From an uncultured Psychroserpens sp. (lineage in GTDB: Bacteria; Bacteroidota; Bacteroidia; Flavobacteriales; Flavobacteriaceae), in NCBI GenBank assembly GCA_947488655.1, contig CANKZZ010000002.1, positions 248,001 through 312,000 of the forward strand: 64,000 bases of DNA, read 5' to 3'. Within the stretch, counting starts at the first letter, position 1; the number at the start of each line of letters is the position of its first letter. A model generated the notes under the pieces. The model was not told where the DNA came from, made no database searches, and saw nothing but the letters and a program-made list of their open reading frames with translations. A program made the position numbers and the translations under genes. Positions 48,826-64,000 of the stretch are shown here, one piece after another.

Positions 48826-50100
48826 TTACTTCGGAAATTTGCCCTTAATTTTATCCAAACACAAATTACCAATACTACCAACATGTGTGTGCTTTTTAGA
48901 AGTATCAGGTTTGTAGGTTCCGTTTTCAACTTCTCCTCCTATTTTTTGATACGCTTCTCTAAAAGGCATGCCTTCTACAACCAAGGTATTAATATTATCT
49001 ACTGTAAATAAGTATTGATATTTAGCATCGTTTAAATCGATATCTTTTACAATAACTTGCTGAATTGCAAACGTAAAGATATCTAACAAATCTTTTACAT
49101 CTTCAATTGCTGCAATAATATTTTCTTTTAACAGCTGAAAATCTCTGTGGTAACCACTTGGTAAATTATTAGTAATTAAAACCATTTCGGTATGTAATGC
49201 TTGAATCTTATTTGCCTTTCCACGGATTAATTCAAACACATCTGGATTCTTTTTATGTGGCATAATACTGCTTCCTGTAGTAAGCTCATCAGGAAAAGCG
49301 ATGAAGCCAAAATTCTGACTATTATACACACAAATATCCATTGCAAAACGCGCCAAAGTATTACACACACTTCCTAAAGCTAAAGCGATAGTTCTCTCGC
49401 TTTTTCCTCTACTCATTTGGGCAGCAACCACATTATATTTTAAGGTCGCAAAGTTTAATTCTTTTGTTGTTAACTCTCTATCAATAGGAAAAGAACTTCC
49501 GTAACCAGCAGCAGAACCTAAAGGATTTTGATCTACGGTTTTCAAGGCAGCATTTAGTAAATATACATCATCAATTAAAATCTCAGCATAGGCAGAAAAC
49601 CACAATCCGAAGGAAGAGGGCATTGCCACTTGTAAATGCGTATAACCAGGAAGTAATGCTTCTTTATGTGTTTCCGCTAAGTTTAAAAGCGTATCGAAAA
49701 ACGTTTTTGTTTTCGTGTTTATTTCTTTTAAATTGTTTTTATAATATAACTGAAGCGCAACTAAAACTTGATCGTTTCTAGAACGTGCGGTATGGATTTT
49801 CTTTCCGACATCACCTAAGCTTTTAGTCAGCTCATATTCAATTTTAGAATGTACATCTTCAAAAGACTCTTCAATAACGAAGGTTTCGTTTTCAATGGTT
49901 TCCGCAATAGCGTGCAAACCACTTTTAAGTTGTTTTAATTCTTCCGAAGAAATAATACCAATGGACTCCAACATTATTGCATGTGCCAACGATGCTTGAA
50001 CGTCATATTTTGCAATATGCATGTCAATCTCTCTATCGTTTCCAACGGTAAATTGTTCTATTTTTTTATCGATAGGTATTCCTTTGTCCCAGAGTTTCAT
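48826..50100 (-). CDS. argH: Argininosuccinate lyase
   Basis: A 424-residue fumarase/aspartase superfamily protein, slightly shorter than the usual 450-460. Seen: 'DVHSKIEYELTKSLGDVGKKIHTARSRNDQV' region (split landmark with the HTxRSRNDQ motif), 'LPGYTHLQ' with the catalytic-site Thr-His, and the superfamily signature 'GSSIMPHKKNPD'. It releases arginine and fumarate in the last step. It is the last gene of the arg operon; an 85-base gap with a large palindromic repeat separates it from argE. Confidence 0.95.
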   Translation of the reverse strand: MKLWDKGIPIDKKIEQFTVGNDREIDMHIAKYDVQASLAHAIMLESIGIISSEELKQLKSGLHAIAETIENETFVIEESFEDVHSKIEYELTKSLGDVGKKIHTARSRNDQVLVALQLYYKNNLKEINTKTKTFFDTLLNLAETHKEALLPGYTHLQVAMPSSFGLWFSAYAEILIDDVYLLNAALKTVDQNPLGSAAGYGSSFPIDRELTTKELNFATLKYNVVAAQMSRGKSERTIALALGSVCNTLARFAMDICVYNSQNFGFIAFPDELTTGSSIMPHKKNPDVFELIRGKANKIQALHTEMVLITNNLPSGYHRDFQLLKENIIAAIEDVKDLLDIFTFAIQQVIVKDIDLNDAKYQYLFTVDNINTLVVEGMPFREAYQKIGGEVENGTYKPDTSKKHTHVGSIGNLCLDKIKGKFPK

Positions 50101-50113
50101 AATTCATTTTTTA

Positions 50114-50181
50114 TTGTCATTGCGAATGAAATGAAGCAATCTCATGATGAGATAACTTCGTCATTCTTCCTCGTTATGACG
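50114..50181. repeat. REP-like imperfect palindrome between argE and argH
   Basis: The 68 bases start TTGTCATTGCGAATGAAATG and end TCCTCGTTATGACG, with outer arms GTCAT/ATGAC and CGA/TCG, and the centre ATCTCAT-G-ATGAGAT is a perfect inverted repeat. The opening 'GTCATTGCGA..GAAGCAATCTC' is a widespread bacterial intergenic repeat type. It nearly fills the argE-argH gap. Confidence 0.7.
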
Positions 50182-50185
50182 TTTG

Positions 50186-51247
50186 CTACAATACTTTTTC
50201 TAATAATTTAATATAAATCTTAATCCCTTCTTCAATTTCATGCACGTAAATAAACTCATCGGCAGAATGCGATCTTGTGCTATCACCTGGACCTAATTTC
50301 AAAGAAGAACAAGTTAAAACTGCTTGATCAGACAAGGTTGGAGAACCATAGGTGCTTCTACCAATTTCTATTCCTGCAATCACCAATGGATGATCGATAG
50401 GAATGGACGACGAATTTAATTTTATACTTCTTGGTATAATACTATTACAAGGCGCTTCCTTTTGTAAAATATCGACAATATCTTGGTTGGAATATTTATC
50501 GTTTACACGAACATCTACCACTAACTTTACATCTGCAGGAACTGCATTGTGTTGCTTACCTGCGTTAATTTGTGTGACTGTCATTTTAACTTTCCCTAAA
50601 GCTTCAGAGGTTTTATCGAAGGTATAATTTTTAAACCACTCTAAAACTGGAATAGTGTTATAAATAGCATTATCGGTATTTGGGTGCGCTGCATGACTTG
50701 GCGTTCCTTTTACCTCTGCATCAAACACGACCAAACCTTTTTCGGCAACAGCGAGATTCATTAAAGTTGGCTCACCAACAATAGCGACATCTACTTTTGG
50801 AATCACAGAAAGCATACTATTTAACCCATTTTCACCACTGCTTTCTTCTTCAGCGGAAGCGACAATAACCAGATTAAAATTTAGATTTTCTCTGCTATAG
50901 AAATAGGCAAACGTTGCCAACAAACTCACCAAACAACCACCAGCATCATTGCTTCCTAAACCATATAATTTTCCGTCTTCAACAATAGCTTTAAATGGAT
51001 CTTTGGTGTAGCCATTATTCGGTTTTACGGTATCGTGATGCGAGTTTAATAATAGCGTAGGTTTGCTATCGTTAAAATGTTTATTGGTTGCCCAAACATT
51101 ATGTTTGGTTCTTTTAAAAGGAATATTTTGTTGCACAAACCATTGTTCAATATGCGCAGCTGTTTTGTCTTCCTCAGAAGAAAAAGACTGGGTTTCAATG
51201 AGTGTTTTTAACAGCTGAATTGCTCTTGTTGTTAGTTTTTCTATCAT
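50186..51247 (-). CDS. argE: N-acyl-citrulline/ornithine deacylase (M20 family)
   Basis: A 353-residue M20 metallopeptidase-family protein. Metal-binding motifs are visible: 'LLNSHHDTVKP' (His and Asp), 'GLGSNDAGG', 'ASAEEESSGENG' (catalytic and metal Glu), and 'RSHSADEFIYVHEI' with the final His. Family members include ArgE and DapE. The place in an arg operon with the argF' transcarbamylase argues for removal of the acyl group from N-acylcitrulline rather than from ornithine. Its start overlaps argB by four bases. If the pathway uses succinyl groups (see argF'), this is a desuccinylase. Confidence 0.88.
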   Translation of the reverse strand: MIEKLTTRAIQLLKTLIETQSFSSEEDKTAAHIEQWFVQQNIPFKRTKHNVWATNKHFNDSKPTLLLNSHHDTVKPNNGYTKDPFKAIVEDGKLYGLGSNDAGGCLVSLLATFAYFYSRENLNFNLVIVASAEEESSGENGLNSMLSVIPKVDVAIVGEPTLMNLAVAEKGLVVFDAEVKGTPSHAAHPNTDNAIYNTIPVLEWFKNYTFDKTSEALGKVKMTVTQINAGKQHNAVPADVKLVVDVRVNDKYSNQDIVDILQKEAPCNSIIPRSIKLNSSSIPIDHPLVIAGIEIGRSTYGSPTLSDQAVLTCSSLKLGPGDSTRSHSADEFIYVHEIEEGIKIYIKLLEKVL

Positions 51248-52020
51248 TTGGTAATGGTTGTGTGTTTATTATTTTTATGGAAAAGCATATCTGATTTACC
51301 AATACAAACTTTTTGTACTTGATGGTTTATAGCATGAAAACAGTTGTTTAGTTTTGGAAGCATGCCTTCAAAAATCACTTTATTTTCTACTAATGTTTTA
51401 TACGTTTCTCTGTTTATGTTTTCTATTACAGAATCGTCATTATTAACATCTTCTAAAACGCCATTCTTTTCAAAACAGTAATATAATTCGGTCTTATATT
51501 TTTTAGAGAAACCTATTGCTAATTCCGAAGCAATCGTATCTGCATTGGTATTTAATAATTGTCCGTTTTTATCATGTGTAATTGCGCAAAACACAGGTGT
51601 AATTTTGTTATTTAAAAGAATTTCTAACGTTTCAGTATTTACCTTTTTGACGTCTCCAGCAAAACCATAATCGATAGGTTTTGATGGTCTTAAATCTGAA
51701 ACTATTGTGTTTCCATCTGCACCAGAAAAACCAATAGCATTACAATTGTTGGCTTGTAATTGTGCGACTACCTTTTTATTGATTTTTCCAGCATACACCA
51801 TAGTGATAATATCTAAAGTCACTTGATCGGTTATTCGTCTTCCGTCTACCATTTTCACCTCTACTTGCATTTGTTGTGCTAGTTTGGTTGCTAGTTTTCC
51901 ACCACCATGCACTAATATTTTAGGAGGTTCTATAGTTGCAAATGCTTTTAAAAATTGCTGTAAAGCATTATCATCATCGATAATATTTCCTCCAATTTTT
52001 ATGACTTTTAGTGTTTTCAT
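51244..52020 (-). CDS. argB: N-acylglutamate kinase
   Basis: A 258-residue amino-acid-kinase-fold protein, normal for the non-hexameric ArgB type that lacks the N-terminal helix used for arginine feedback. Seen: 'VIKIGGNIIDDD' (phosphate-binding), 'ILVHGGGKLATKL' and 'NADTIASELAIG' (nucleotide and substrate region). It phosphorylates N-acetyl- or N-succinylglutamate. The short N-terminus suggests that feedback control must lie elsewhere, possibly at transcription. One base separates its start from the argF' stop. Confidence 0.93.
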   Translation of the reverse strand: MKTLKVIKIGGNIIDDDNALQQFLKAFATIEPPKILVHGGGKLATKLAQQMQVEVKMVDGRRITDQVTLDIITMVYAGKINKKVVAQLQANNCNAIGFSGADGNTIVSDLRPSKPIDYGFAGDVKKVNTETLEILLNNKITPVFCAITHDKNGQLLNTNADTIASELAIGFSKKYKTELYYCFEKNGVLEDVNNDDSVIENINRETYKTLVENKVIFEGMLPKLNNCFHAINHQVQKVCIGKSDMLFHKNNKHTTITK

Positions 52021-52021
52021 T

Positions 52022-52957
52022 TTATAAATTTTCTAAAATCTGCTTCAATACGATTTGCGCAGCAAAAGTTCTATTATTTGCTTGATTAATTACTACTGAA
52101 TTCTCACTATCTAAAACCGCATCTTCCACAACCACATTTCGTCTTACAGGTAAACAATGCATGAATTTTGCATTTCCCAACTTCACTTTTGTCATCATCC
52201 AATTCTCGTCTTGACTAAGCACTTTTCCGTAGTCTTTATAATTACTCCAGTTTTTCACATAGACAAAATCGGCATCTTTTAAAGCCTCTTCTTGATTGTG
52301 ATTTATTGGCGTGTTTTTGGTGATTGCTTCGCTTAGCTCATAACCTTCAGGATGCGTAATGGTTAAATCTACATCCATATTTTGCATCATTTCTACAAAC
52401 GAGTTCGCAACCGCTTGTGGTAATGCTTTAGGATGTGGAGCCCAAGACAAGACAACTTTAGGTTTTGGCTTTTCTGTTAATTCGGTAATGGTAATTGCAT
52501 CTGCCAATGCCTGTAAAGGATGCGCTGTTGCCGATTCCATATTAACTATTGGTACTGTTGCGTATTTCATAAAGCTGTTCATTACAAATTCAGACTCGTC
52601 TTTTTGCTTATCGGTTAAACTAGGAAATGCTCTTATTGCAATCACATCTGCATATTGCGATATCACTTGTGCTGCTTCTTTAATATGCTCTGATTTGTCC
52701 ATATTCATGATTGTACCATCTTCAAACTCTAAATTCCAAGTATCATTTACGTTTAAAATCATCACGTCCATTCCTAAGTTTTTTGCAGCTTTTTCGGTAC
52801 TTAATCGTGTACGCAAACTAGCATTAAAAAATAACATGACTAAGGTTTTGTGTTTACCTAAGTCTTGAAATTCAAACGGATTCATTTTTAGCAGAATGGC
52901 TTCCTTGATTGTTTCTTGAACGTTTGAAATGTCTTTTATTTTGGTGTATTTTTTCAT
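52022..52957 (-). CDS. argF': N-succinylornithine/N-acetylornithine carbamoyltransferase ArgF'
   Basis: Length is 311 residues from the ATG at 52957; an ATG two codons earlier (52963) directly abuts a hairpin and is less likely. The carbamoyl-phosphate motif is 'FFNASLRTRLST', instead of the S-x-R-T-R of ordinary ornithine carbamoyltransferase. Also seen are 'WAPHPKALPQAVANSF', 'ATAHPLQALAD' and 'MHCLPVRRN'. This is the Bacteroidota/Xanthomonas branch that acts on N-acylornithine. In the segment 'NMDKSEHIKEA' the residue that aligns with Glu92 of the Xanthomonas acetylornithine enzyme and Pro90 of the Bacteroides succinylornithine enzyme is Ser, which favours succinylornithine (see findings). 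Confidence 0.92.
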   Translation of the reverse strand: MKKYTKIKDISNVQETIKEAILLKMNPFEFQDLGKHKTLVMLFFNASLRTRLSTEKAAKNLGMDVMILNVNDTWNLEFEDGTIMNMDKSEHIKEAAQVISQYADVIAIRAFPSLTDKQKDESEFVMNSFMKYATVPIVNMESATAHPLQALADAITITELTEKPKPKVVLSWAPHPKALPQAVANSFVEMMQNMDVDLTITHPEGYELSEAITKNTPINHNQEEALKDADFVYVKNWSNYKDYGKVLSQDENWMMTKVKLGNAKFMHCLPVRRNVVVEDAVLDSENSVVINQANNRTFAAQIVLKQILENL

Positions 52958-52963
52958 ATTCAT

Positions 52964-52981
52964 TTCCCACGAAAGTGGGAA
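52964..52981 (-). repeat. Junction palindrome before argF'
   Basis: TTCCCACGAAAGTGGGAA, with perfect 7-base arms around GAAA on the plus strand. Read in the direction of the gene it is AGATTCCCAC-TTTC-GTGGGAAAT, ending six bases before the chosen start and touching the alternative ATG. The same 18 bases occur before argC (56000-56017). Confidence 0.75.
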
Positions 52982-52996
52982 TCTCTTTAAATTAAT

Positions 52997-54118
52997 CTAG
53001 TTACTTTTCAAAGCCTTAAAAAACAAATCGACATGTTCTTTTTTGATAGTTAATGGCGGAAGAATTCGTAATAAATTAGGATTCTTTGCGCTTCCCGTAA
53101 ATATTTTATATTCGAAAATTAGCTTTTTACGCAGTTCAGCTATCGGAAAATCAAATTCTAAACCAAGCATTAAACCACGTCCTTTTATGTTTTTAATTGC
53201 CGAAATTTCTTTTGCTTTCTCGATAAAATAAGCTGAGATGTCTCTAGCATTTTGCATCAAATGCTCTTCTTCAATGACTTCTAAAACTGCAAGTGAAGCA
53301 ACACATGCCAAGTGATTTCCACCAAAAGTGGTTCCCAACAAACCAAAAGAGGCTTTAATATCTGGATGAATTAAAATACCACCAATTGGAAAACCATTTC
53401 CCATTCCTTTAGCAATAGAAATAATATCTGGAGTCACATTATATTTTTGAAATGCGAAGAAATCACCAGTTCTTCCAAAACCAGATTGAACCTCATCTGC
53501 TATAAAACACGTATTGTATTTTTTACATAATGCATCTACACCTTCGTAGAATACAGCAGTACTTTCGTCCAATCCTCCAACACCTTGAATACACTCAATA
53601 ATTACTGCGCAAACATCGTTTTTTGCTAAGGCTTTTTCTAACGACTCTAAATCTCCTAAAGCTAAAATCTCTACCTCTTGTTGCGCATTTATTGGCGCAA
53701 TTATCTTCGCATTATCTGTTGCTGCAACAGCTGCTGATGTGCGACCATGAAAGCCATTTTTAAAAGCAACCAGCTTTTTCTTTCCGTTATGAAAAGATGC
53801 TAATTTTAAAGCATTCTCATTGGCTTCTGCACCAGAATTACATAAAAACAGTTCATAATCTTTACAACCAGATAATCGTTCTAATTGGTCTGCTAATTGT
53901 GCTTGCAACGGATTCTGAATCGAGTTACTATAAAACCCTAATTTGGCAACTTGCTCACTAATGTTTTTCACATATTTTGGATGCGAATGCCCAATAGAAA
54001 TCACAGCATGACCACCATATAAATCTAAATATTTGGTGTTGTTTTCATCGTAAACAAAAACATCTTCTGCTTTTACAGGAGTGATATCGAATAGTGGATA
54101 TACGTTAAACAAACTCAT
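52997..54118 (-). CDS. argD: Acylornithine aminotransferase (class III)
   Basis: A 373-residue PLP-dependent class III aminotransferase. Seen: 'CNSGAEANENALKLA', 'GFHGRTSAAVAATD', 'FIADEVQSGFGRTGDFFAF' (Asp binding the PLP pyridine), and 'ISIAKGMGNGFPIGG' with the Schiff-base Lys. It makes N-acylornithine from the semialdehyde with glutamate as donor. The start overlaps the proC stop by four bases. Neighbours make ornithine metabolism certain; the acyl group (acetyl or succinyl) cannot be read from this gene. Confidence 0.93.
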   Translation of the reverse strand: MSLFNVYPLFDITPVKAEDVFVYDENNTKYLDLYGGHAVISIGHSHPKYVKNISEQVAKLGFYSNSIQNPLQAQLADQLERLSGCKDYELFLCNSGAEANENALKLASFHNGKKKLVAFKNGFHGRTSAAVAATDNAKIIAPINAQQEVEILALGDLESLEKALAKNDVCAVIIECIQGVGGLDESTAVFYEGVDALCKKYNTCFIADEVQSGFGRTGDFFAFQKYNVTPDIISIAKGMGNGFPIGGILIHPDIKASFGLLGTTFGGNHLACVASLAVLEVIEEEHLMQNARDISAYFIEKAKEISAIKNIKGRGLMLGLEFDFPIAELRKKLIFEYKIFTGSAKNPNLLRILPPLTIKKEHVDLFFKALKSN

Positions 54119-54915
54119 ATCTGCTCTTTTTTAATGTTACTAATTTTGTTAAACGAAGCAATCATACCTTGTATCAAAGAAGAGCTTAACCCTTTGTGTT
54201 CCATTTCATTTAAACCTTCAATCGTACAACCTTTTGGCGTAGTCACTCTGTCGATTTCTTCTTCTGGATGATTTCCATTAGTAATCAATAAACTCGCAGC
54301 TCCTTCACTCGTGTACATGGCTAATTCTTGTGCTTCTTTGGCATCAAAACCTAACTGAATTGCTGCTTGCGTGGTCGCTCTAATTAAACGCATCCAAAAG
54401 GCAACACCACTTGCACAAACCACAGTTGCTGCTTGCATTTGACTTTCTGGAATACTCAACGAATGTCCTAAACGGTTAAAAATAGCTTCAGCAATTTTAA
54501 TACGTTTTACACCTTGCTCATTACTACACAAACAAGTCATTGATTTACCAACTGCAATCGCTGTATTTGGCATGGCGCGAATGATAAATTTATCGGCTCC
54601 AACTATGTCTTCAATCTTAGGAATTAGAAAACCTGTTATGGTTGAAATTAACACGTGTTTTTCTGTTAATTCTGGCATAATATCATTCAATATTTGCTCA
54701 AAATGTGCTGGTTGTACAGCAAAAATTATAATATCCGATTGCTTTACAGCCTCGGTATTATCTGTAGTTAAAAACACATTTTTATAGCCATCAAATTCCT
54801 GAATTCCATCTAAATTTCTTTTGGTTAAATACAGACTAGTAATGGCGTTGTTGGCTATCAATCCTTTTGCGATGGATTTTCCTAAGTTTCCTGTTCCTAT
54901 TATTGCTATTTTCAT
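54115..54915 (-). CDS. proC: Pyrroline-5-carboxylate reductase
   Basis: Length is 266 residues from the ATG at 54915, which leads directly into the Rossmann motif 'MKIAIIGTGNLGKSIA'. An in-frame ATG at 54936 lies inside a palindromic repeat and adds seven non-homologous residues, so it was rejected. The C-terminal signature 'VTTPKGCTIEGLNEME' is the classic P5CR motif. It makes proline from pyrroline-5-carboxylate. Proline and arginine share glutamate-derived intermediates, which explains its place in this operon; proA and proB are not in the window. Confidence 0.95.
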   Translation of the reverse strand: MKIAIIGTGNLGKSIAKGLIANNAITSLYLTKRNLDGIQEFDGYKNVFLTTDNTEAVKQSDIIIFAVQPAHFEQILNDIMPELTEKHVLISTITGFLIPKIEDIVGADKFIIRAMPNTAIAVGKSMTCLCSNEQGVKRIKIAEAIFNRLGHSLSIPESQMQAATVVCASGVAFWMRLIRATTQAAIQLGFDAKEAQELAMYTSEGAASLLITNGNHPEEEIDRVTTPKGCTIEGLNEMEHKGLSSSLIQGMIASFNKISNIKKEQI

Positions 54916-54930
54916 GCTTGATCTTTTTGT

Positions 54931-55000
54931 TTTCATTTCCGCGAAGGCGGAAATCTTTTACTATTAACTTCTTTAGATTTCCGCTTTCGCGGAAATGAAA
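54931..55000. repeat. Inverted pair of junction palindromes between argC and proC
   Basis: Two copies of one element face each other: TTTCATTTCCGCGAAGGCGG plus AAATCT (54931-54956) and AGATTTCCGC-TTTC-GCGGAAATGAAA (54975-55000). They differ at one base over 26, and each is itself a palindrome. The copy nearer proC has the same orientation relative to the gene as those before argF' and argC. Confidence 0.8.
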
Positions 55001-55009
55001 AAATGCTTA

Positions 55010-55993
55010 TTAAAAATATGTTGCTTTCAATTTTAAACCTTCCGTTTCATCAAAACCAAACATTAAATTCATGTTTTGAATGGCTTGTCCCGAAGCACCT
55101 TTTAGCAAATTATCAATAATGCTTGTTACCAATAACTTATCTTCATGCTTATGTAAATGAAGTATACACTTATTAGTATTCACCACTTGTTTCAAATGAA
55201 TCTCATCTTCTGAAACCACAGTAAATGCAGCATCTTTATAAAAATCGGCATACAGTTGTTTTGCTTCTGCTAAGCTTCCTTTAAACTTAGTGTACATAGT
55301 TGCAAAAATTCCTCTTGAAAAATCCCCACGATTTGGCATAAAATTAATCTCCGAATTAAAATTAGATTGCAACAATTTTACCGATTGATTAATCTCGCCT
55401 AAATGCTGATGCGTAAACGCTTTATAATGCGAAAAGTTATTATCTCGCCACGTAAAATGTGTGGTTGCAGATAATGATGTTCCTGCTCCTGTTGCTCCTG
55501 TTACTGCATTAATATGCACATCGTTTTGTAAAACTTCAGCTTTTGCCAAAGGCAATAATGCTAACTGAATTGCTGAGGCAAAACACCCTGGATTTGCAAT
55601 GTAATTAGCTTTTTTAATGGCTTCTTTATTCAATTCAGGCAAACCATAAACAAAAGTTTTACCTTCAAAAATTTCATCTTTAGTTAATCTGAAGTCATTA
55701 CTCAAATCGATGATTTTAGTTTCTGCAGAAAACGAATTCTTTTCTAAAAATGCTTTAGAATTTCCGTGACCTAAACACAAGAATAATACATCTACTTCTG
55801 CGTTAATTTCATTGGTAAACTCCAAATCTGTACTACCAATTAAATCTTGGTGTACTTTATATACCTTATTTCCAGCATTTGACGTACTGTAAATAAAATG
55901 GATGTTAGCTTTTGGATGATTTAACAACAATCTTATTAGCTCTCCAGCTGTATAACCTGCTCCTCCAATGATTCCTATTTCTAATTTTTTCAT
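55010..55993 (-). CDS. argC: N-acyl-gamma-glutamyl-phosphate reductase
   Basis: A 327-residue protein of the ArgC family. Seen: 'IGIIGGAGYTAGELIRLLLNHP' (NADP-binding), 'DLSNDFRL', 'YGLPELNKEAIKKANYIANPGCFA' region with the catalytic Cys in 'NPGCFAS', and 'HQHLGEINQ' near the end. It reduces the acylglutamyl phosphate to the semialdehyde. Length is normal for the short form (about 315-345). The start at 55993 is six bases after a junction palindrome. Confidence 0.95.
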   Translation of the reverse strand: MKKLEIGIIGGAGYTAGELIRLLLNHPKANIHFIYSTSNAGNKVYKVHQDLIGSTDLEFTNEINAEVDVLFLCLGHGNSKAFLEKNSFSAETKIIDLSNDFRLTKDEIFEGKTFVYGLPELNKEAIKKANYIANPGCFASAIQLALLPLAKAEVLQNDVHINAVTGATGAGTSLSATTHFTWRDNNFSHYKAFTHQHLGEINQSVKLLQSNFNSEINFMPNRGDFSRGIFATMYTKFKGSLAEAKQLYADFYKDAAFTVVSEDEIHLKQVVNTNKCILHLHKHEDKLLVTSIIDNLLKGASGQAIQNMNLMFGFDETEGLKLKATYF

Positions 55994-55999
55994 ATCAAT

Positions 56000-56017
56000 T
56001 TCCCACGAAAGTGGGAA
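56000..56017 (-). repeat. Junction palindrome before argC
   Basis: TTCCCACGAAAGTGGGAA, identical over 18 bases to the element before argF' (52964-52981), and placed in the same orientation six bases before the argC start. Confidence 0.75.
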
Positions 56018-56042
56018 TCTTTTTAATTCAACTTACTTTAGT

Positions 56043-56069
56043 CCTGCAAGGTTTTAAAAACCTGCAAGG
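56043..56069. repeat. Dispersed palindromic repeat between argG and argC
   Basis: CCTGCAAGG-TTTTAAAAA-CCTGCAAGG: a direct 9-base repeat on each side of a palindromic core AGGTTTT-A-AAAACCT. It belongs to the same type as the element at 12413-12431. Confidence 0.7.
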
Positions 56070-56079
56070 TCAGGTCATT

Positions 56080-57267
56080 TTAGCTATTTACTTGTTGATA
56101 AATCTTATTTTGATTTCCAACAATTTTAATAAAGCCTTTAGCTTCATCTGCAGTCCAACCTTTATTTTCTTCGCCATAACTTCCAAACTTTGCGTTCATT
56201 AAATCATGTTTAGATGTAATACCGTCTACAGTAAAATGATACGGTTTTAACCTTACAAAAACATCTCCAGAAACTTTGTCTTGACTGCTTTGTAAAAAGG
56301 CTTCCATGTCACGCATTACTGGATCTAGATATTGACCTTCATGCAAATGCATTCCATAGAAATTTGACATATAATCCTTGTGCTGTAATTGCCATTTGGT
56401 CAACGTATGTTTTTCTAATAAATGGTGTGCTTTTATAGTAATTAAAGCTGCTGCAGCTTCAAAACCAACACGACCTTTTATACCAACAATAGTATCACCT
56501 ACGTGAATATCTCTACCAACTGCGTAGGCAGATGCAAGATTGTTTAGTACTTCAATATTTACTTCTGCTGCATTTTCAATTCCGTTAACAGCAACCAATT
56601 CTCCTTTTAAAAAGGTTAATGTAACTTTCTCTTCTTCGGCATGTTTTAATTGCGAAGGATAAGCAGATTCTGGTAATGGTTTTCCTGATGTTAGTGTTTC
56701 TTCACCACCAACACTGGTTCCCCAAAGTCCTTTATTAACTGAATATTTTGCCTTTTCCCAAGATGCTTCAATACCGTTTTCTTTTAAGTAATCAATTTCT
56801 TGTTGTCTGCTTAAACTTCCGTCTCTAATTGGTGTAATAATTTTAATATGTGGTGCTAATGTTTGAAAAATCATATCAAAACGTACTTGATCGTTTCCAG
56901 CTCCTGTGCTTCCGTGTGCGATATATTCAGCATCAATACTTTTTGCATATTCGATAATTTCGATAGCTTGAATGATACGTTCTGCACTTACTGATAACGG
57001 ATAGGTGTTGTTTTTAAGCACATTTCCGAAGATTAAATACTTAATCACTTTATCATAATACGATGCTATTGCGTCGATATTTTTATAGGTTGACACACCC
57101 ATTTTATATGCATTAGCTTCAATGGTTTTTATTTCTTCTACTGAAAAACCTCCTGTATTTACACTAACAGCGTGCACATCATATCCTGCCTTACTTAAAC
57201 TTACTGCGCAATAGGAGGTGTCTAATCCACCACTATATGCTATTACCAATTTGCCTTTATTTTTCAT
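56080..57267 (-). CDS. argG: Argininosuccinate synthase
   Basis: A 395-residue protein, normal length. The ATP-pyrophosphatase motif 'VIAYSGGLDTSYCAVSL' opens the protein; 'YIAHGSTGAGNDQVRF' and 'GLWGTSVGGEETL' are citrulline/aspartate-binding regions. It joins citrulline and aspartate. In the route suggested by argF', citrulline is released by ArgE before this step. The start overlaps the upstream GNAT gene by 11 bases, implying coupled translation. Confidence 0.96.
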   Translation of the reverse strand: MKNKGKLVIAYSGGLDTSYCAVSLSKAGYDVHAVSVNTGGFSVEEIKTIEANAYKMGVSTYKNIDAIASYYDKVIKYLIFGNVLKNNTYPLSVSAERIIQAIEIIEYAKSIDAEYIAHGSTGAGNDQVRFDMIFQTLAPHIKIITPIRDGSLSRQQEIDYLKENGIEASWEKAKYSVNKGLWGTSVGGEETLTSGKPLPESAYPSQLKHAEEEKVTLTFLKGELVAVNGIENAAEVNIEVLNNLASAYAVGRDIHVGDTIVGIKGRVGFEAAAALITIKAHHLLEKHTLTKWQLQHKDYMSNFYGMHLHEGQYLDPVMRDMEAFLQSSQDKVSGDVFVRLKPYHFTVDGITSKHDLMNAKFGSYGEENKGWTADEAKGFIKIVGNQNKIYQQVNS

Positions 57268-57886
57268 TTTTCTCTTTTTTTAAAAACATAGATTGCTTAA
57301 TATTTTTCAATCTGGTCCATACTTTTTTATCATGATTATTTGCTGCTGGTTTTGTTGCTTCCTTTTTAGAGGGATCATACAACATACCTGTACATAAGCA
57401 CATTTTTTGTTCTGTTCTTGTTAAAACATCAAAATTTTTGCAAGTCTGACAACCATTCCAGAAGGATTGATCATCTGTTAATTCGGAAAACGTAACCGGT
57501 TTATAGCCTAAGTCACTATTCATTTTCATAACCGCTAAACCAGTTGTAATACTAAACACTTTTGCATCTGGAAATTTGGTTCTAGAATGCTCGAATATTT
57601 TCTGTTTGATCTGTTTAGCTAAGCCCATGTTTCTAAAATCTGGATGTACAATCAACCCTGAATTGGCTACAAATTTGCCATGGCTCCATTGTTCGATATA
57701 GCAAAAACCTGCAAATTTATCGTCCTCTAATGCGATAACAGCATTACCATTCTCCATTTTGGTAATGATATATTCTGGTTTTCGTTTTGCAATACCAGTT
57801 CCTCTAACTTGAGCAGCATCTGCAATAGTGTTACAAATAATATCTGCGTAAATACTATGTGCTTTATTTGCAATAACAATTTCCAT
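57257..57886 (-). CDS. GNAT acyltransferase, probable N-acylglutamate synthase, with C-terminal Cys cluster
   Basis: A 209-residue protein. The GNAT acyl-CoA loop is seen in 'LIVHPDFRNMGLAKQI' (Arg85 to Ala90, the R/Q-x-x-G-x-A pattern), followed by 'TTGLAVMKMNSDLGYKPV'. A C-terminal extension has Cys146, Cys149, Cys163 and Cys165 ('CQTC' ... 'CLC'), which could bind zinc. It is the first gene of the arg operon, where classical ArgA or ArgJ is missing, so it most likely makes N-acetyl- or N-succinylglutamate. As I recall, a GNAT at the same position in the Bacteroides thetaiotaomicron arg cluster was assigned this job genetically. Confidence 0.82.
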   Translation of the reverse strand: MEIVIANKAHSIYADIICNTIADAAQVRGTGIAKRKPEYIITKMENGNAVIALEDDKFAGFCYIEQWSHGKFVANSGLIVHPDFRNMGLAKQIKQKIFEHSRTKFPDAKVFSITTGLAVMKMNSDLGYKPVTFSELTDDQSFWNGCQTCKNFDVLTRTEQKMCLCTGMLYDPSKKEATKPAANNHDKKVWTRLKNIKQSMFLKKEKNEK

Positions 57887-57975
57887 TGTAATTGAATTTT
57901 TAAATTAAAAATGTAATGTTTTTGTTTTTGAAAGCAGAACCGGACTCACCTAAATTCTATAAATAGAAGTACACC

Positions 57976-58071
57976 CTAAGGGCGACGACGAAAAATTGGA
58001 CGTAAGGTTATCCTGTTATTATTTCTAATAACTGTATTTGAAAAAGGAAATATTTGAATTGAATTGGTCAC
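57976..58071 (-). CDS. Possible second arginine-rich leader peptide (31 codons)
   Basis: A GTG at 58071, preceded two codons earlier by a stop, opens 31 codons ending at TAG (57976-57978). Arg is at positions 16, 20, 24, 28, 29 and 30, the last three consecutive ('IFRRRP'). It lies 47 bases after the first leader peptide and 89 bases before the GNAT start. The frame contains a perfect 7-base hairpin with a GAAA loop. The non-ATG start and unknown conservation make it less sure than the first. Confidence 0.4.
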   Translation of the reverse strand: MTNSIQIFPFSNTVIRNNNRITLRPIFRRRP

Positions 58072-58118
58072 TGTCTAAAAAAATAAAAACTATTAACTAA
58101 ATGCTTGAAGTATGCGTA

Positions 58119-58184
58119 TTAGCGACGTCGTCTGCGCATTGGCAAACTTGTGGGTCTTTCGTTTTTATTTATAGTATTAAACAT
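58119..58184 (-). CDS. Arginine leader peptide, attenuator candidate (21 residues)
   Basis: ATG at 58184 starts a frame of 21 codons: MFNTINKNER, then PTSLPM, then five consecutive Arg codons (CGC AGA CGA CGT CGC) and TAA. Six of 21 residues are Arg, and the five-Arg run uses four different codons, so the run is not a simple repeat. It stands upstream of a nine-gene arginine operon on the same strand. This is the structure expected of a leader peptide on which ribosomes stall when Arg-tRNA is scarce. I know of no characterised arginine attenuator of this kind in Bacteroidota. Expression is not shown by sequence alone. Confidence 0.7.
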   Translation of the reverse strand: MFNTINKNERPTSLPMRRRRR

Positions 58185-58310
58185 GGTGTAAAATTAGAAA
58201 ATAATTTAATATAGAGACTCAATTGTTTGCTTTTTACTTGATTTTTACGAATTTGACAAAATTAATAGCATGTATTTATCATATAGTTAATAAAAAACTT
58301 CTCATTTATT

Positions 58311-59579
58311 TTAAACCAAAAATTGAAACAAATCGGGCTTATCATTTAAATAGTCTCCATAGAAATTATGAAGTTTCATTTTGGTAATTAGAGGTTCTAA
58401 ATCGCTTTGAGATTTTAATTCTAATCCAACTACAGCCACATCATTTTCTCGATTTACTTTCTTTGTATATTCAAAATGCGTAATGTCATCTGTTGGGCCT
58501 AAAATGTCTACTACAAAATCTCTAAGTGCTCCTGATCGTTGTGGAAATTTTACGATGAAATAATGTTTTAAATTAGCATATAGTAGGGCTCTTTCTTTAA
58601 TCTCGGCAGTACGTGTGATATCATTGTTACTTCCGCTAATAACACAAACCACATTTTTTCCTTTTATTTCTTCGGAAAATTGATCTAATGCAGATAGGCT
58701 TAATGCTCCTGCAGGTTCTACAATAATTGCGTCTTTATTATATAAGTCTAATATAGTCTGGCAAACTTTACCTTCATCTACCGTTACTACACGATGCAAA
58801 GTCTCTTTACATATGGCAAAATTTAAATCGCCAACACGTTTTACTGCAGCACCATCAACAAAATTATCAATTGATTTTAACTCGGTGTTTTTATTATTTC
58901 TAATAGAAGTTAACATTGCTGGCGCACCTTTAGGTTCTACACTAATAATTTTTGTTTGTGGAGATAAAATTTTAAATACAGAGGATAATCCTGCTGCGAG
59001 ACCACCACCACCAACTGGGACAAAAACATAATGAATTGGATGCTCTTTTGCTTGATCTATTATTTCTAAACCAACAGTGGCTTGTCCCTCAATTACTTTT
59101 TTGTCATTAAATGGATGAATAAAAGTTTTGTTAAGTGCTTCGCATTGTGTCATTGCAGCGTGATATGCATCATCAAAGGTGTCGCCAATGAGTATGACAT
59201 CAATATAATCTTCTCCAAACATTTTAACCTGCTCTACCTTTTGTTTTGGCGTAGGTGAAGGCATAAATATTGTGCCTTTAATTTTTAATAATTTACAAGA
59301 AATAGCAACACCTTGAGCGTGATTACCTGCACTTGCGCAAACAATTTCATTTTCTATTTGATTGGTGCTTAGCGAAGAGATTTTATTATATGACCCACGA
59401 ATTTTATATGAGCGTACCTCTTGTAAATCTTCTCTCTTAAAAAATATATTTGCTCCAAATTGTTTAGAATAGCGTGCGTTTTTAATTAACGGTGTTACAG
59501 ATGCAATACCATGTAGTTTTTTTGCTGCAGCTTCAATAGCTTCTAAACTTGGTCTATATATAGTTTGAGTTTCTTCCAT
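58311..59579 (-). CDS. ilvA: Threonine ammonia-lyase, biosynthetic
   Basis: A 422-residue PLP enzyme. The PLP Lys is in 'FKREDLQEVRSYKIRGSYN'; 'CASAGNHAQGVA' and 'VPVGGGGLAAG' bind phosphate. The C-terminal region (about 335-422, 'HYFIVKFPQRSGALRDFV') is one ACT-like regulatory domain, against two in the 514-residue E. coli enzyme. It makes 2-oxobutanoate for isoleucine. It is the last gene of the ilv run, 43 bases after ilvC. Operon context rules out a catabolic role. Confidence 0.94.
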   Translation of the reverse strand: MEETQTIYRPSLEAIEAAAKKLHGIASVTPLIKNARYSKQFGANIFFKREDLQEVRSYKIRGSYNKISSLSTNQIENEIVCASAGNHAQGVAISCKLLKIKGTIFMPSPTPKQKVEQVKMFGEDYIDVILIGDTFDDAYHAAMTQCEALNKTFIHPFNDKKVIEGQATVGLEIIDQAKEHPIHYVFVPVGGGGLAAGLSSVFKILSPQTKIISVEPKGAPAMLTSIRNNKNTELKSIDNFVDGAAVKRVGDLNFAICKETLHRVVTVDEGKVCQTILDLYNKDAIIVEPAGALSLSALDQFSEEIKGKNVVCVISGSNNDITRTAEIKERALLYANLKHYFIVKFPQRSGALRDFVVDILGPTDDITHFEYTKKVNRENDVAVVGLELKSQSDLEPLITKMKLHNFYGDYLNDKPDLFQFLV

Positions 59580-59622
59580 GTGTTGTGAAATCTTGAATCT
59601 AGTTCAAAATGACATTGTATAT

Positions 59623-61125
59623 TTAGGCTAAAACCGATGCTTCTGTTTTAACATCTGATTTTATGATTTTCATTGCAGTCATTGCTGCTCTTAATCGCTT
59701 ACCTACTGCTTCGATAGGATGATTTCTAATAGCATCGTTTACTGCTATTAATTCTACATTATCAACTCCGTTTGTTTTTGAAAAAGGCTTACCAATAATA
59801 TCTGTTTCGACTGATGTCATAAAATCTATTAAAAGTGGTTTGCACGCATGATCAAATAAGTAGCAACCATATTCCGCAGTGTCTGAAATTACTCTGTTCA
59901 TTTCAAATAATTTTTTTCTAGCAATTGTATTAGCAATTAATGGTAATTCATGAAGTGATTCGTAGTATGCAGAATCTTCAATAATTCCAGCACTCACCAT
60001 AGTTTCATATGCTAGTTCTACACCAGATTTCACAAAAGCTACTAATAACGTACCATGGTCAAAATATTCTTGTTCAGAAATATGGTCTGAAGTTAATGCT
60101 GTTTTTTCAAAAGCAGTTTCACCTGTTTCTGCTCTCCATTTCAACAGGTTTACGTCATCATTTGCCCAATCTTCCATCATGGTTTTCGAGAAATGACCCG
60201 AAATAATATCGTCCATATGTTTCTCGAATAACGGACGCATAATGTCTTTTAATTCTTCAGATAATTGGTATGCTTTTACTTTTGCTGGATTAGATAAACG
60301 GTCCATCATGTTTGTAATTCCACCATGCTTTAAAGCTTCAGTAATAGTTTCCCAACCAAACTGAATTAATTTTGCAGCATAACCAGCTTCAATACCCTCT
60401 GCTACCATTTTATCAAAAGATAAAATAGCACCAGTTTGTAACAAACCACATAAAATGGTTTGCTCACCCATTAAATCACTTTTAACTTCAGCAACGAAAG
60501 ATGATTCTAAAACACCTGCACGATGACCTCCTGTTGCAGCAGCATAAGCTTTGGCCTGAGTCCAACCTTTATTTTCTGGGTCATTTTCTGGATGTACAGC
60601 AATTAATGTTGGTACACCAAAACCACGTTTATATTCTTCTCTCACTTCGGTACCTGGACACTTTGGAGCCACCATTATAACTGTAATGTCCTCTCTAATT
60701 TTGGTGCCTTCTTCTACAATGTTAAATCCGTGAGAATAGCTTAGTGTTGCTCCTTTTTTCATTAAAGGCATCACTGCTTTTACCACATTGGTGTGTTGTT
60801 TATCTGGTGTTAAATTTAATACTAAATCTGCAGTAGGAATCAACTCGTTGTAAGTGCCAACTGCAAAACCGTTACTAGTTGCGTTTTTATAAGACTCGCG
60901 TTGCTCATCAATTGCAACTTTTCTTAATGTATATGAAATATCTAAACCTGAATCTCTCATGTTTAAACCTTGATTTAAGCCTTGTGCGCCACAACCAACG
61001 ATAACTATTTTTTTTCCTTTTAATGCATTTACACCATCTTCAAACTCTGAAGCATCCATGAATCTACATTTACCTAATTGTTCTAGTTGGTTTCTTAATG
61101 ATAATGTGTTGAAATAATTTGACAT
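59623..61125 (-). CDS. ilvC: Ketol-acid reductoisomerase, long (class II) form
   Basis: A 500-residue protein like the E. coli class II enzyme (about 490) rather than the 330-residue class I form. NADPH-binding '[21 protein letters not shown]' region is split over the GxGxxG loop, with 'YTLRK' after it. The duplicated knotted domains carry the Mg-binding '[12 protein letters not shown]' and, in the second repeat, '[15 protein letters not shown]'. It serves both isoleucine and valine synthesis. It lies 22 bases after ilvN. Confidence 0.95.
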
Positions 61126-61147
61126 TGTCTTTTATTTTAATTGTTGG

Positions 61148-61675
61148 TTATGCTTGAAAAGCTTCTAGCATTGTTGATATTTTCATTTCGTCCTTAGTCA
61201 CTGCAATACGTCCAGAACGTGTAAATTGCATGATTCCAAAAACGTTTAATTCTCGGTATAATAGTTCTATTTCTTCTTTACGTCCCGATTTTTCAATCAC
61301 GAAAAAATCACGATTTACAGTTACAATTCTTGCATTACTTTCTTTAATTATATTTTGAATTTGTCTTTCATCAAATAACAAATCTGATTTCATTTTAAAG
61401 ATGCAAGACTCTTGATAAATTGTTTCATCCTCGGTATGGTAATACGCTTTAATAACTTCAACTTGTTTTTCTATTTGACCAATGATTTTTTTCATTTGAT
61501 CTTCTGCGAGTAAGACTACCATAGTCCATTTTGTGACATTTTCTATTTCAGAAACAGAAGAGTTTATACTTTCAATATTTATATGTCTTCTCTGAAATAT
61601 TGCTGAAATTCGATTTAACAATCCGATATTATTTTCGGTGTAAATTGAAACGGTATATAAGTTATTTTGATTCAT
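61148..61675 (-). CDS. ilvN: Acetolactate synthase small (regulatory) subunit
   Basis: A 175-residue protein with an N-terminal ACT domain ('YTVSIYTENNIGLLNRISAIFQRRHINIESI') and a second ACT-like C-terminal domain. It gives feedback control by branched-chain amino acids and activates the large subunit. One base separates it from ilvB. Length is typical (160-190). Confidence 0.95.
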   Translation of the reverse strand: MNQNNLYTVSIYTENNIGLLNRISAIFQRRHINIESINSSVSEIENVTKWTMVVLLAEDQMKKIIGQIEKQVEVIKAYYHTEDETIYQESCIFKMKSDLLFDERQIQNIIKESNARIVTVNRDFFVIEKSGRKEEIELLYRELNVFGIMQFTRSGRIAVTKDEMKISTMLEAFQA

Positions 61676-61676
61676 A

Positions 61677-63428
61677 TTATTCTAATCTTATATCTGAAAC
61701 TGATGCTCCTGTTGGTATCATTGGAAAAACATTTCCTTCTTTTTCAACGCAAACCTCTAAAAAATAAGGACCGTCTGTATTAATCATTTTAGCTACAGCA
61801 TCTTTTAAATCTTCTCGTTTTGTCACTTTTTCTGCCTCAATAAAATAACCTTTAGCGATAGCGACAAAATCTGGGTTTGTCATTTCGGTTGAGGCATAAC
61901 GCTTATCAAAAAACAGTTGTTGCCATTGACGTACCATACCTAAAAATTCGTTATTTAAAACTACTATTTTAACACCAGCTTTTTGCTGAAAAATAGTACC
62001 TAGTTCTTGAATAGTCATCTGATAACCACCATCGCCAGAAATAGAAATCACCTCACGCTCTGGAGCTGCCATTTTTGCTCCAATTGCAGCAGGCAGACCA
62101 AATCCCATTGTCCCTAAACCTCCAGACGTAATATTACTTCTGGTTTTATTAAAATTGGCATAACGACAAGCAATCATTTGGTGCTGACCAACATCTGTAA
62201 CAATTGCTGCATCTCCTTTAGTCTGGTTATTAATTTCCTTTAAAACTTCAGCCATTGTTAAGCCTTCTTTAGTAGGATGTAAATCGTGCTTTATTACTTT
62301 TTCATATTCAATAGCATATAAATCCTTAAATTTTTGATGCCATTCTGGATACGTTTTTTCTATTAAAAGCGGTAATAAGGCTGCTAAACTTTCTTTTGCA
62401 TCACCTAAAACTGCTACATCTGTTTTTACATTTTTATCTATTTCGGCTGGATCAATTTCAAAATGTATCACTTTAGCTTGTTTTGCGTAGGTTGCAAGAT
62501 TTCCTGTCACACGATCGTCAAATCGCATCCCAATTGCTATTAAAACATCGCAATCATTTGTTAATACATTTGGTGCATAATTACCATGCATACCAACCAT
62601 ACCAATATTTAATGGATGAGAAGTTGGGATTGCTCCTGCGCCTAAAATGGTCCAAGCCGATGGGATTCCTGCTTTTTCTACTACAGCTTTGAATTGCATT
62701 TCAGCTTGACCTAAAGCTACGCCTTGTCCCCAAACAATCATTGGTTTTTTTGCAGCATTAATTAATTTTGCTGCAGCTTCAACAGAAGTTCTATCTAATT
62801 TTGGAATAGGGATATAACTCCTTACACCTTTACATTTTTCGTATTTAAAATCAAACTCTTCAAATTGAGCGTCTTTTGTAATATCAATTAAAACAGGTCC
62901 TGGGCGACCGCTTCTAGCAATATAAAAAGCTTTAGCCATAACTTCGGGGATTTGGGAAGCTTTGGTAATTTGGTGATTCCATTTAGTAACAGGCGTAGAA
63001 ATACCCACAATATCTGTTTCTTGAAACGCATCACTACCTAATAAATGAGAAGCCACTTGACCTGTAATACATACCATAGGCGTACTATCAATTTGTGCAT
63101 CTGCAATACCTGTAATTAAATTTGTAGCACCAGGTCCTGATGTGGCAATTGCGACACCCACTTTTCCAGAAATACGAGCATAACCTTGTGCAGAATGTGT
63201 TGCACCTTGTTCATGACGAGTTAACACGTGGTGTATTTTATCTTGATATTTATATAACTCATCATAAACTGGCATTATTGCTCCACCAGGATATCCATAA
63301 AGGATATCTACACCTTCGGCCAACAAGCATTTTATAATCGCTTCACTTCCCGATATACGTACTGTTTGTTGTGAAGTAGTATCGGTTTCTTTTATGGTTT
63401 TTGTTTCCATATTTTCTATTTTTTCCAT
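61677..63428 (-). CDS. ilvB: Acetolactate synthase large subunit
   Basis: Length is 583 residues from the ATG at 63428, two bases before the ilvD stop; an upstream ATG (63467) would overlap ilvD. A second in-frame ATG at 63410 is also possible. Seen: 'YGYPGGAIMPVYDEL', the catalytic Glu in 'RHEQGATHSAQGYAR', FAD region 'GMRFDDRVTGN' and the ThDP motif 'SGDGGYQMTIQELGT'. It forms acetolactate and acetohydroxybutyrate, the common first step of Val/Leu and Ile synthesis. Confidence 0.96.
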   Translation of the reverse strand: MEKIENMETKTIKETDTTSQQTVRISGSEAIIKCLLAEGVDILYGYPGGAIMPVYDELYKYQDKIHHVLTRHEQGATHSAQGYARISGKVGVAIATSGPGATNLITGIADAQIDSTPMVCITGQVASHLLGSDAFQETDIVGISTPVTKWNHQITKASQIPEVMAKAFYIARSGRPGPVLIDITKDAQFEEFDFKYEKCKGVRSYIPIPKLDRTSVEAAAKLINAAKKPMIVWGQGVALGQAEMQFKAVVEKAGIPSAWTILGAGAIPTSHPLNIGMVGMHGNYAPNVLTNDCDVLIAIGMRFDDRVTGNLATYAKQAKVIHFEIDPAEIDKNVKTDVAVLGDAKESLAALLPLLIEKTYPEWHQKFKDLYAIEYEKVIKHDLHPTKEGLTMAEVLKEINNQTKGDAAIVTDVGQHQMIACRYANFNKTRSNITSGGLGTMGFGLPAAIGAKMAAPEREVISISGDGGYQMTIQELGTIFQQKAGVKIVVLNNEFLGMVRQWQQLFFDKRYASTEMTNPDFVAIAKGYFIEAEKVTKREDLKDAVAKMINTDGPYFLEVCVEKEGNVFPMIPTGASVSDIRLE

Positions 63429-63429
63429 A

Positions 63430-64000
63430 CTATAAATCTGTAACACATCCTTTTGATGCAGACGCAACAGATTTTGCGTATTTATATAAAATTCCTTTAT
63501 TGTGTTTTAATGGTGGAGCAACCCATTTAGATTTTCTTTTTTCTAATTCTTCTTCGGAAATTAAAACGTTTATAGAATTGTCCACTGCACTAATTCTAAT
63601 TTTATCACCTGTATTTAATAAAGCTATAGTGCCACCTGATTGAGCCTCAGGAGTTATGTGACCAACCACAAATCCGTGAGTTCCTCCAGAAAAACGTCCA
63701 TCTGTAATTAATGCTACAGATTTACCTAAACCTGCTCCCATAATTAATGACGTTGGTTTTAGCATTTCTGGCATTCCTGGACCACCTTTTGGTCCAACAT
63801 ATCTAATGACGACTACATCTCCTTTTTCTACTTCTCCATTAGAAATACCTGTATTTGCTGCTTGCTCGCCATCATAAACTACTGCCTTTCCTTCAAATAA
63901 CAAACCTTCGTTTCCAGAGATTTTTGCTACAGCGCCTTCTGAGGCTAAGTTTCCGTAGATAATTTGAATATTTCCTGAGGTTTTTAATGCTTTATCTTTT
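63430..64000 (-). CDS. ilvD: Dihydroxy-acid dehydratase, 5' end beyond the window
   Basis: The frame continues to the right edge, so only the C-terminal 190 residues are seen. They match IlvD: '[14 protein letters not shown]', '[14 protein letters not shown]', '[16 protein letters not shown]', '[20 protein letters not shown]' and '[12 protein letters not shown]'. The [Fe-S] cysteines lie outside the window. It is followed at one base by ilvB and leads the ilvD-B-N-C-A run. Confidence 0.95.

Follow-up and report, generated by a model that had tools for sequence, protein, structure and literature searches.

The arg operon and the region ahead of it

The window, a 64,000-nucleotide stretch from the genome of an uncultured Psychroserpens species, carries a nine-gene arginine operon on its minus strand. 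The first gene encodes a GNAT-family protein (57257..57886; weak NCBIfam match, 25 bits against a cut-off of 154). It is followed by argG, argC, proC, argD, an N-acetylornithine carbamoyltransferase, argB (258 aa), an ArgE/DapE-like deacylase and argH, which together occupy 48826..57267 on the minus strand and were assigned by NCBIfam. Among these, argC, proC, the carbamoyltransferase, argB and argH score above their cut-offs, while argG, argD and the deacylase fall below. The proC gene (pyrroline-5-carboxylate reductase, 54115-54936) lies between argC and argD. The carbamoyltransferase (52022-52963) matches the N-acetylornithine carbamoyltransferase model with 290.9 bits against a cut-off of 288, so the operon probably uses acylated ornithine.

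The GNAT protein of the window is 97% identical to its closest named relatives, which belong to Olleya and Lacinutrix, and the C-terminal part of the protein is Cys-bearing. Standing at the head of an arg operon, the gene could encode the missing N-acyl-glutamate synthase. Within the genus of the window, the GNAT gene is present in only 7 of 23 genomes; the other 16 may be arginine auxotrophs or may use another first step.

The C-terminal domain of the arginine repressor ArgR (PF02863) was found in none of 57 relatives, the window's genome included. The same search was positive in 8 of 14 known genomes run as a control, one Bacteroides among them. That ArgR was not found in these relatives leaves room for a regulatory device in the leader of the operon, without proving one.

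Two tandem leader frames

The distal end of the leader carries a short frame, ORF1 (58119..58184, minus strand), encoding MFNTINKNERPTSLPMRRRRR*. It opens with an ATG at 58184-58182, spans 21 codons and closes with CGC AGA CGA CGT CGC TAA (stop at 58121-58119), 232 nt ahead of the GNAT start codon at 57886. The first-pass annotation had singled out this minus-strand frame and its five final Arg codons as an arginine-sensing leader, and direct reading of the sequence bears out both the frame and the Arg run. Conservation in related genomes, on which that proposal depended, is also present. In a set of 81 loci, made up of the window and 80 loci of named relatives (L051-L130), an ATG frame that spans 15-30 codons and has three or more Arg among its last nine residues occurs between -400 and -170 in 71 loci, compared with 5 of 1620 dinucleotide shuffles and none of the 81 loci on the reverse strand. 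Intergenic DNA of any kind tends to hold short frames, and ORF1 could be a chance frame in AT-rich DNA; these counts refute it, as the Arg-ended frame is far beyond chance.

An ATG frame at the ORF1 position with two to five Arg in the last nine residues was found in 78 of the 81 loci (missing from L075, L078 and L111), with examples such as MIIITNKNERPASLPVRRRRR, MFTLRHKYRVPRPTGLDLTKRRR and MITSRRNKLCTTISPSLRLRNRRR. Among the 23 genomes of the window's genus, the frame is present in all seven that bear GNAT; at its end, L005 retains only ...LRR and L009 reads ...RRRCAF. Among the five final codons of ORF1, counted over loci, 142 of the 244 that encode Arg are CGC, compared with 6 of 91 in nine genes of the window.

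Directly ahead of ORF1 lies a predicted promoter element, TAATTTTA (58189..58196, minus strand; pattern TAnnTTT(G/A)), at a fixed spacing from the start codon. More specifically, TAnnTT[TA] occurs 9-16 nt 5' of the ORF1 ATG in 76 of 78 loci, whereas 10.8 would be expected from shuffles, and its first T stands exactly 12 nt ahead of the ATG in 64 of 78; the complete TAnnTTTG is found in 26 of 78. We take boxes of the TAnnTTTG type to be the Bacteroidota -7 promoter consensus, and on this assumption the transcript is predicted to start at or adjoining the ORF1 ATG. This places the leader between the predicted promoter and the first structural gene, with GNAT and argG downstream.

A second frame, ORF2 (57976..58071, minus strand), starts with GTG, encodes VTNSIQIFPFSNTVIRNNNRITLRPIFRRRP and terminates in ...RPIFRRRP. 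The spacer between ORF1 and ORF2 is U-rich and measures 47 nt in the window and mostly 38-62 nt in relatives. ORF2 is about 30 codons long and runs into a downstream hairpin, H1. Over the 28 codons upstream of H1, its frame is open in 80 of 81 loci, while the other frames over the same codons are open in 7 and 1 loci on the forward strand and in 1, 28 and 0 on the reverse (n = 81). In the displayed rows of the first alignment, judged by eye, most gaps 5' of H1 have lengths divisible by three. The start codon is variable, with TTG in 36, GTG in 27 and ATG in 18 of the 81 loci. The Arg-rich end is retained: the seven codons preceding the CGC of H1 contain at least one Arg in 128 of 128 loci and at least two in 112, with a mean of 2.6, compared with means of 0.26 in shuffles and of 0.16 and 0.05 in the other two frames. 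The CGC of H1 was left out of this count, because the search pattern for H1 itself contains one CGC.

The conservation of both frames across many genera could also be explained if ORF1 and ORF2 encoded functional small Arg-rich proteins instead of regulatory leaders. Over the whole of ORF1 the third codon position changes somewhat more than the others (493, 497 and 616 substitutions at the three positions), a mild excess that would fit a selected peptide. In the bodies of the two frames this excess is absent (338, 389 and 386 in ORF1; 403, 259 and 329 in ORF2). The bodies change freely, constancy is limited to start, length and Arg end, and the location ahead of the arg genes is fixed, all of which makes functional small proteins a very improbable reading. 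That start, frame, length and Arg end are maintained while the peptide drifts points instead to a leader.

To describe how the two frames are distributed, we surveyed 133 non-redundant loci (from 141), of which 127 could be classified. ORF1 and ORF2 occur together in 94, and ORF2 is found with no recognised ORF1 in 33 under a strict criterion that also loses some true ORF1 frames, such as that of L073. ORF2 with its Arg-rich end is present in 127 of 127. Conservation strongly supports the idea that the arg operon has an Arg-sensing leader, but the five-Arg frame on which it was built is neither the whole device nor its most widespread part. Parts beyond those first annotated are ORF2, the promoter box that immediately precedes ORF1, and three hairpins, H0, H1 and H2.

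The start of ORF2 differs between the two architectures. An in-frame ATG is available in 28 of the 33 loci without ORF1 compared with 39 of the 94 with it, internal ATGs counted (Fisher p 1.4e-5, not corrected for shared ancestry). In several ORF2-only loci (e.g. L224, L225, L228 and L230), the ATG start comes shortly after a promoter-like TACATTTG or TATTTTTG. Distant members of the family, inspected by eye, mostly carry one short frame instead of two. In other families of the order, also by eye, single short Arg-rich frames precede GNAT in L017, L018, L021, L022 and L023 (e.g. MNKTTKHINTLAPRFFRRPLWVLN in L021), and no such frame was seen before GNAT in L019 and L020. The single frames in other families suggest that the one-ORF form predates the family of the window. 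The simplest history would be that ORF1 joined a device which had started out with one ORF.

Hairpins of the leader and their linkage to GNAT

Three hairpins were recognised in the leader. The first, H0 (58015..58032, minus strand), has the form GUUAUUA-GAAA-UAAUAAC and lies inside ORF2. In an ungapped set of 49 rows, which was anchored by the reading frame and not by structure, 310 of 343 cells are paired; sliding the arms by one column lowers this to 120 and 127 cells, and by three columns to 239 and 211. H0 is also the top match of a helix pair scan over 64 rows. The second region of that scan is a small hairpin within ORF1, just 5' of the Arg run (about 58146-58131 in the window), which is about 68% paired.

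The second hairpin, H1 (57972..57984, minus strand), reads CGCCC-UUA-GGGUG in the window and CGCCC-loop-GGGYG in general form across loci. Its 5' arm contains the last Arg codon of ORF2, and the ORF2 stop lies within it. Within 57700-58400, no site other than H1 is terminator-like. By the same criterion, H1 counts as terminator-like in 58 of 136 loci compared with 2 of 680 shuffles; elsewhere in the stretch such a site occurs in 6 of 136, and at H2 or in the spacer between ORF1 and ORF2 in none. A terminator in that U-rich spacer, with zero candidates, was accordingly rejected. C-G to A-U compensation in H1 is seen in two loci. H1 is followed by a U-rich linker, UACUUCUAUUUA (57960..57971, minus strand), and across the 136 loci the linker between H1 and H2 contains 53% U compared with 34% in the 45 nt after H2.

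The third hairpin, H2 (57936..57958, minus strand), has the form AGAAYYUAGG-UGNGU-CCRGUUCU, in which a 6-pair stem with a bulge lies beneath a GG-UGNGU-CC apex that is near-invariant (AGGUGNGUCC in the window). Among 42 diverse sequences, 5 of 8 pairs of H2 show changes on both sides, and H1 and H2 together have 28 cells changed on both sides, compared with 8.2 in shuffles. In 60 further loci, two-sided changes affect 7 of 13 pairs of the H1-H2 element, in an alignment fitted to its model. Compensatory changes are found in H0 as well as in H2. A plain fold gives the window's leader no stability beyond that of shuffles (z -0.11); the case for structure rests on covariation and not on energy.

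Several other explanations of these elements were considered. A candidate antiterminator, GUACGYCC with GGGUGUAC, suits the clade of the window; in the pair scan it reaches 0.064-0.066 compared with 0.053-0.056 when slid and about 0.05-0.06 for unrelated helices. This H1' antiterminator thus scores barely above its slid controls, and a conserved antiterminator was not found in the scan. The sequence AGGUGA is complementary to the 3' end of 16S rRNA, for which reason the H2 apex was considered as a Shine-Dalgarno mimic. We set this aside because the N of the apex is free, no start codon follows, and the apex stem shows G-C to A-U compensation. A T-box, a riboswitch or another known Rfam family was likewise rejected: none of these, nor Flavo-1, matches in the leader, and the 11 weak matches in 52000-64000 have E-values up to 5.

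The H1-H2 element was captured in a covariance model, R1 (57930..57987, minus strand), and used to search the genomes of relatives. Among 57 relatives, R1 is present in 14 of 14 GNAT-bearing genomes of the family (E 7.5e-8 or better) and in 0 of 20 GNAT-less ones, where no match falls below E 0.0459. Outside the family, none of 8 GNAT-bearing genomes has a strong match. A search of 395 genomes across the phylum gave 27 matches at E up to 0.05, of which 16 have E 5.4e-9 or better and all come from Flavobacteriaceae. The other 11 are weak (E 0.003 and above; two in the family) and have no GNAT within about 1.5 kb. Another 60 regions upstream of GNAT, chosen by hand among closer relatives, all carry R1 (60 of 60), two of them with weak matches (L205, 6.9e-7; L179, 2.1e-5). 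The element is thus linked to the operon.

Of 24 GNAT-bearing genomes of the family chosen for low GNAT similarity, 14 have R1 at E 4.8e-5 or better, 3 have a weak match (0.0012 to 0.018) and 7 have none. A short frame rich in Arg was seen in 15 of the 24, often as a single ATG frame such as MNSAALHTGLAFQATSPVRRFRRRP. The seven without R1 include both GNAT-bearing genomes of genus g145 (L235 and L236), in which the scan found neither R1 nor an Arg-rich frame. We rejected the idea of a general module common to other operons: at strong E-values each of the genomes listed has a single copy of R1, the apex with A occurs once in the window's genome, and the three C-variants elsewhere, one of them inside an open frame in the window, have no H1 beside them as judged by eye. 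R1 represents a conserved RNA element that has no Rfam family match in the window.

The near-invariant apex of H2, placed on a stem that varies with compensation, resembles a recognition element. It could mean that a regulator protein, or arginine itself, binds H0, H1 and H2, while the leader frames merely tune the response. The Arg-rich ends of ORF2 and of most ORF1 frames are kept while their bodies drift, which argues for a reading of codons, and we regard control by binding as unlikely.

Proposed mechanism and known systems

From the arrangement of these parts, we consider it probable that the leader of the GNAT-argG operon, about 300 nt long, works as an attenuator in which ribosomes translating two tandem leader peptides sense charged tRNA-Arg. 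The best reading of the conservation is that ORF2 and H1 would form the switch and ORF1 an added sensor. Transcription is predicted to begin at or next to the ORF1 ATG. Ribosomes would read ORF1, which closes on a series of rare Arg codons, and ORF2, with its weak GTG, TTG or ATG start and Arg-rich end, whose last Arg codons enter the 5' arm of the short GC hairpin H1, ahead of the U-rich stretch. When Arg-tRNA is plentiful, the ribosome would complete ORF2 and depart, H1 would fold, and transcription would stop ahead of GNAT. When Arg-tRNA is scarce, the ribosome would stall on the Arg codons of ORF2 and physically block H1, so that RNA polymerase would read into the nine genes. A response to arginine of this sign, and the control of all nine genes by Arg-tRNA proposed in the first-pass annotation, would follow from this model. 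Judging from the size of its footprint, a ribosome on the last Arg codons of ORF2 would cover H1 and not H2, for which reason we prefer direct blocking of the H1 terminator. H2 would lie beyond the stalled ribosome and be foldable in either state, and is probably a recognition or pausing element. ORF1 may be a later upstream addition that gates or tunes the supply of ribosomes to ORF2, the gating role being a guess.

Some features fit attenuation less well. H1 is short and weak, with a median local energy of -6.6 kcal/mol, and in 78 of 136 loci it does not count as terminator-like. No conserved antiterminator was found for it, the plain fold of the leader does not exceed shuffles, and R1 is strong in just 14 of the 24 distant GNAT-bearing genomes of the family. 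ORF1 is lacking in 33 of the 127 classified loci, and its job in a model with stalling at ORF2 is not obvious, because a ribosome stalled on ORF1 would keep ORF2 empty.

The weakness of H1 as a terminator makes it a serious possibility that the same sensor has a different output, in which translation of ORF1 and ORF2 would control Rho-dependent termination, mRNA decay or translation of GNAT, as orf34 does at Salmonella speF. There, Arg codons in a leader ORF read the arginine level and switch the structure of the mRNA, and a leader with two Arg codons acts through Rho, RNase G and the unfolding of an inhibitory structure (PMC6386406). Under a pure Rho model, however, a conserved GC hairpin with a U-rich stretch that overlaps the Arg codons would be unneeded. 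Control of GNAT translation finds no recurrent pairs over the GNAT start, in a fold that reaches only about 25 nt past H2. The orf34 leader is one ORF with control over ornithine decarboxylase (PMC6386406), whereas the genes downstream here are those of arginine synthesis and not speF.

We advance a more elaborate version of the attenuator tentatively, as on balance doubtful. It would be a two-stage arginine sensor, in which a near-leaderless ORF1 gates the entry of ribosomes to the weak-start ORF2, the Arg end of ORF2 forms part of the terminator arm, and H2 docks an RNA-binding or elongation factor. ORF1 would have been added to an older one-ORF device and the start of ORF2 weakened afterwards, a history suggested by the contrast in ATG starts (28 of 33 compared with 39 of 94) and by the single frames of distant members.

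Amino-acid operons such as trp, his, thr and ilv are controlled by ribosome-mediated attenuators with leader peptides. The present leader resembles these in having codons for the product amino acid in a short ORF between promoter and biosynthesis genes, and hairpins downstream, one of them terminator-like. It differs from them in the two tandem ORFs found in most loci examined, in the near-leaderless ORF1, in the sensing codons that enter the candidate terminator arm with no conserved antiterminator found, and in the extra hairpin H2 with its near-invariant apex.

From the same bacterial family come the leaders of Flavobacterium psychrophilum, for which leader-peptide attenuation upstream of amino-acid operons has been proposed from transcript and structure data (PMC9723704). 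The 5' elements named in the available part of that report include those at pheA and hisG, and neither arg nor tandem leaders are among those it describes there. In Staphylococcus aureus, ribosomes pause at rare Arg codons of the small leader rbfL in response to arginine (PMC13009471). Unlike the present leader, rbfL has just two Arg codons and does not serve an arginine biosynthesis operon; it covers the ribosome binding site of a biofilm regulator and so represses it. Two leader peptides within one regulatory region are known from ermBL and ermBL2, which differ in that antibiotic-induced stalling controls the translation of a methyltransferase (PMC8274638). Within the phylum, leader-like small ORFs have been described in long 5' UTRs of Bacteroides thetaiotaomicron (PMC7366714), and Bacteroidota mRNAs naturally lack Shine-Dalgarno sequences (PMC6847099).

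We recognised no arginine-biosynthesis attenuator of Bacteroidota in the open-access literature, as searched by titles and the beginnings of abstracts, with most subscription papers outside the search; the tandem leader-peptide form was not found there either. The earlier view of a possibly undescribed system calls for care, as leader-peptide attenuation was already proposed for the amino-acid operons of F. psychrophilum (PMC9723704). The kind of mechanism is known, while its tandem arginine form is new relative to the literature searched. If the attenuator reading is true, it would provide a concrete and testable control of arginine synthesis for a large family of environmental bacteria, in 57 relatives of which ArgR was not found, and an arginine-biosynthesis attenuator with two stacked leader peptides.

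Species with one ORF and species with two make up a natural series in which the reason for a second sensor, and the binding partner of the H2 apex, can be sought. Variants of the apex itself provide a natural test of pairing against sequence: in L105 and L119 the GG/CC of the apex is replaced by GA/UC with pairing kept, and in L174 by GA/UG with the outer pair lost.
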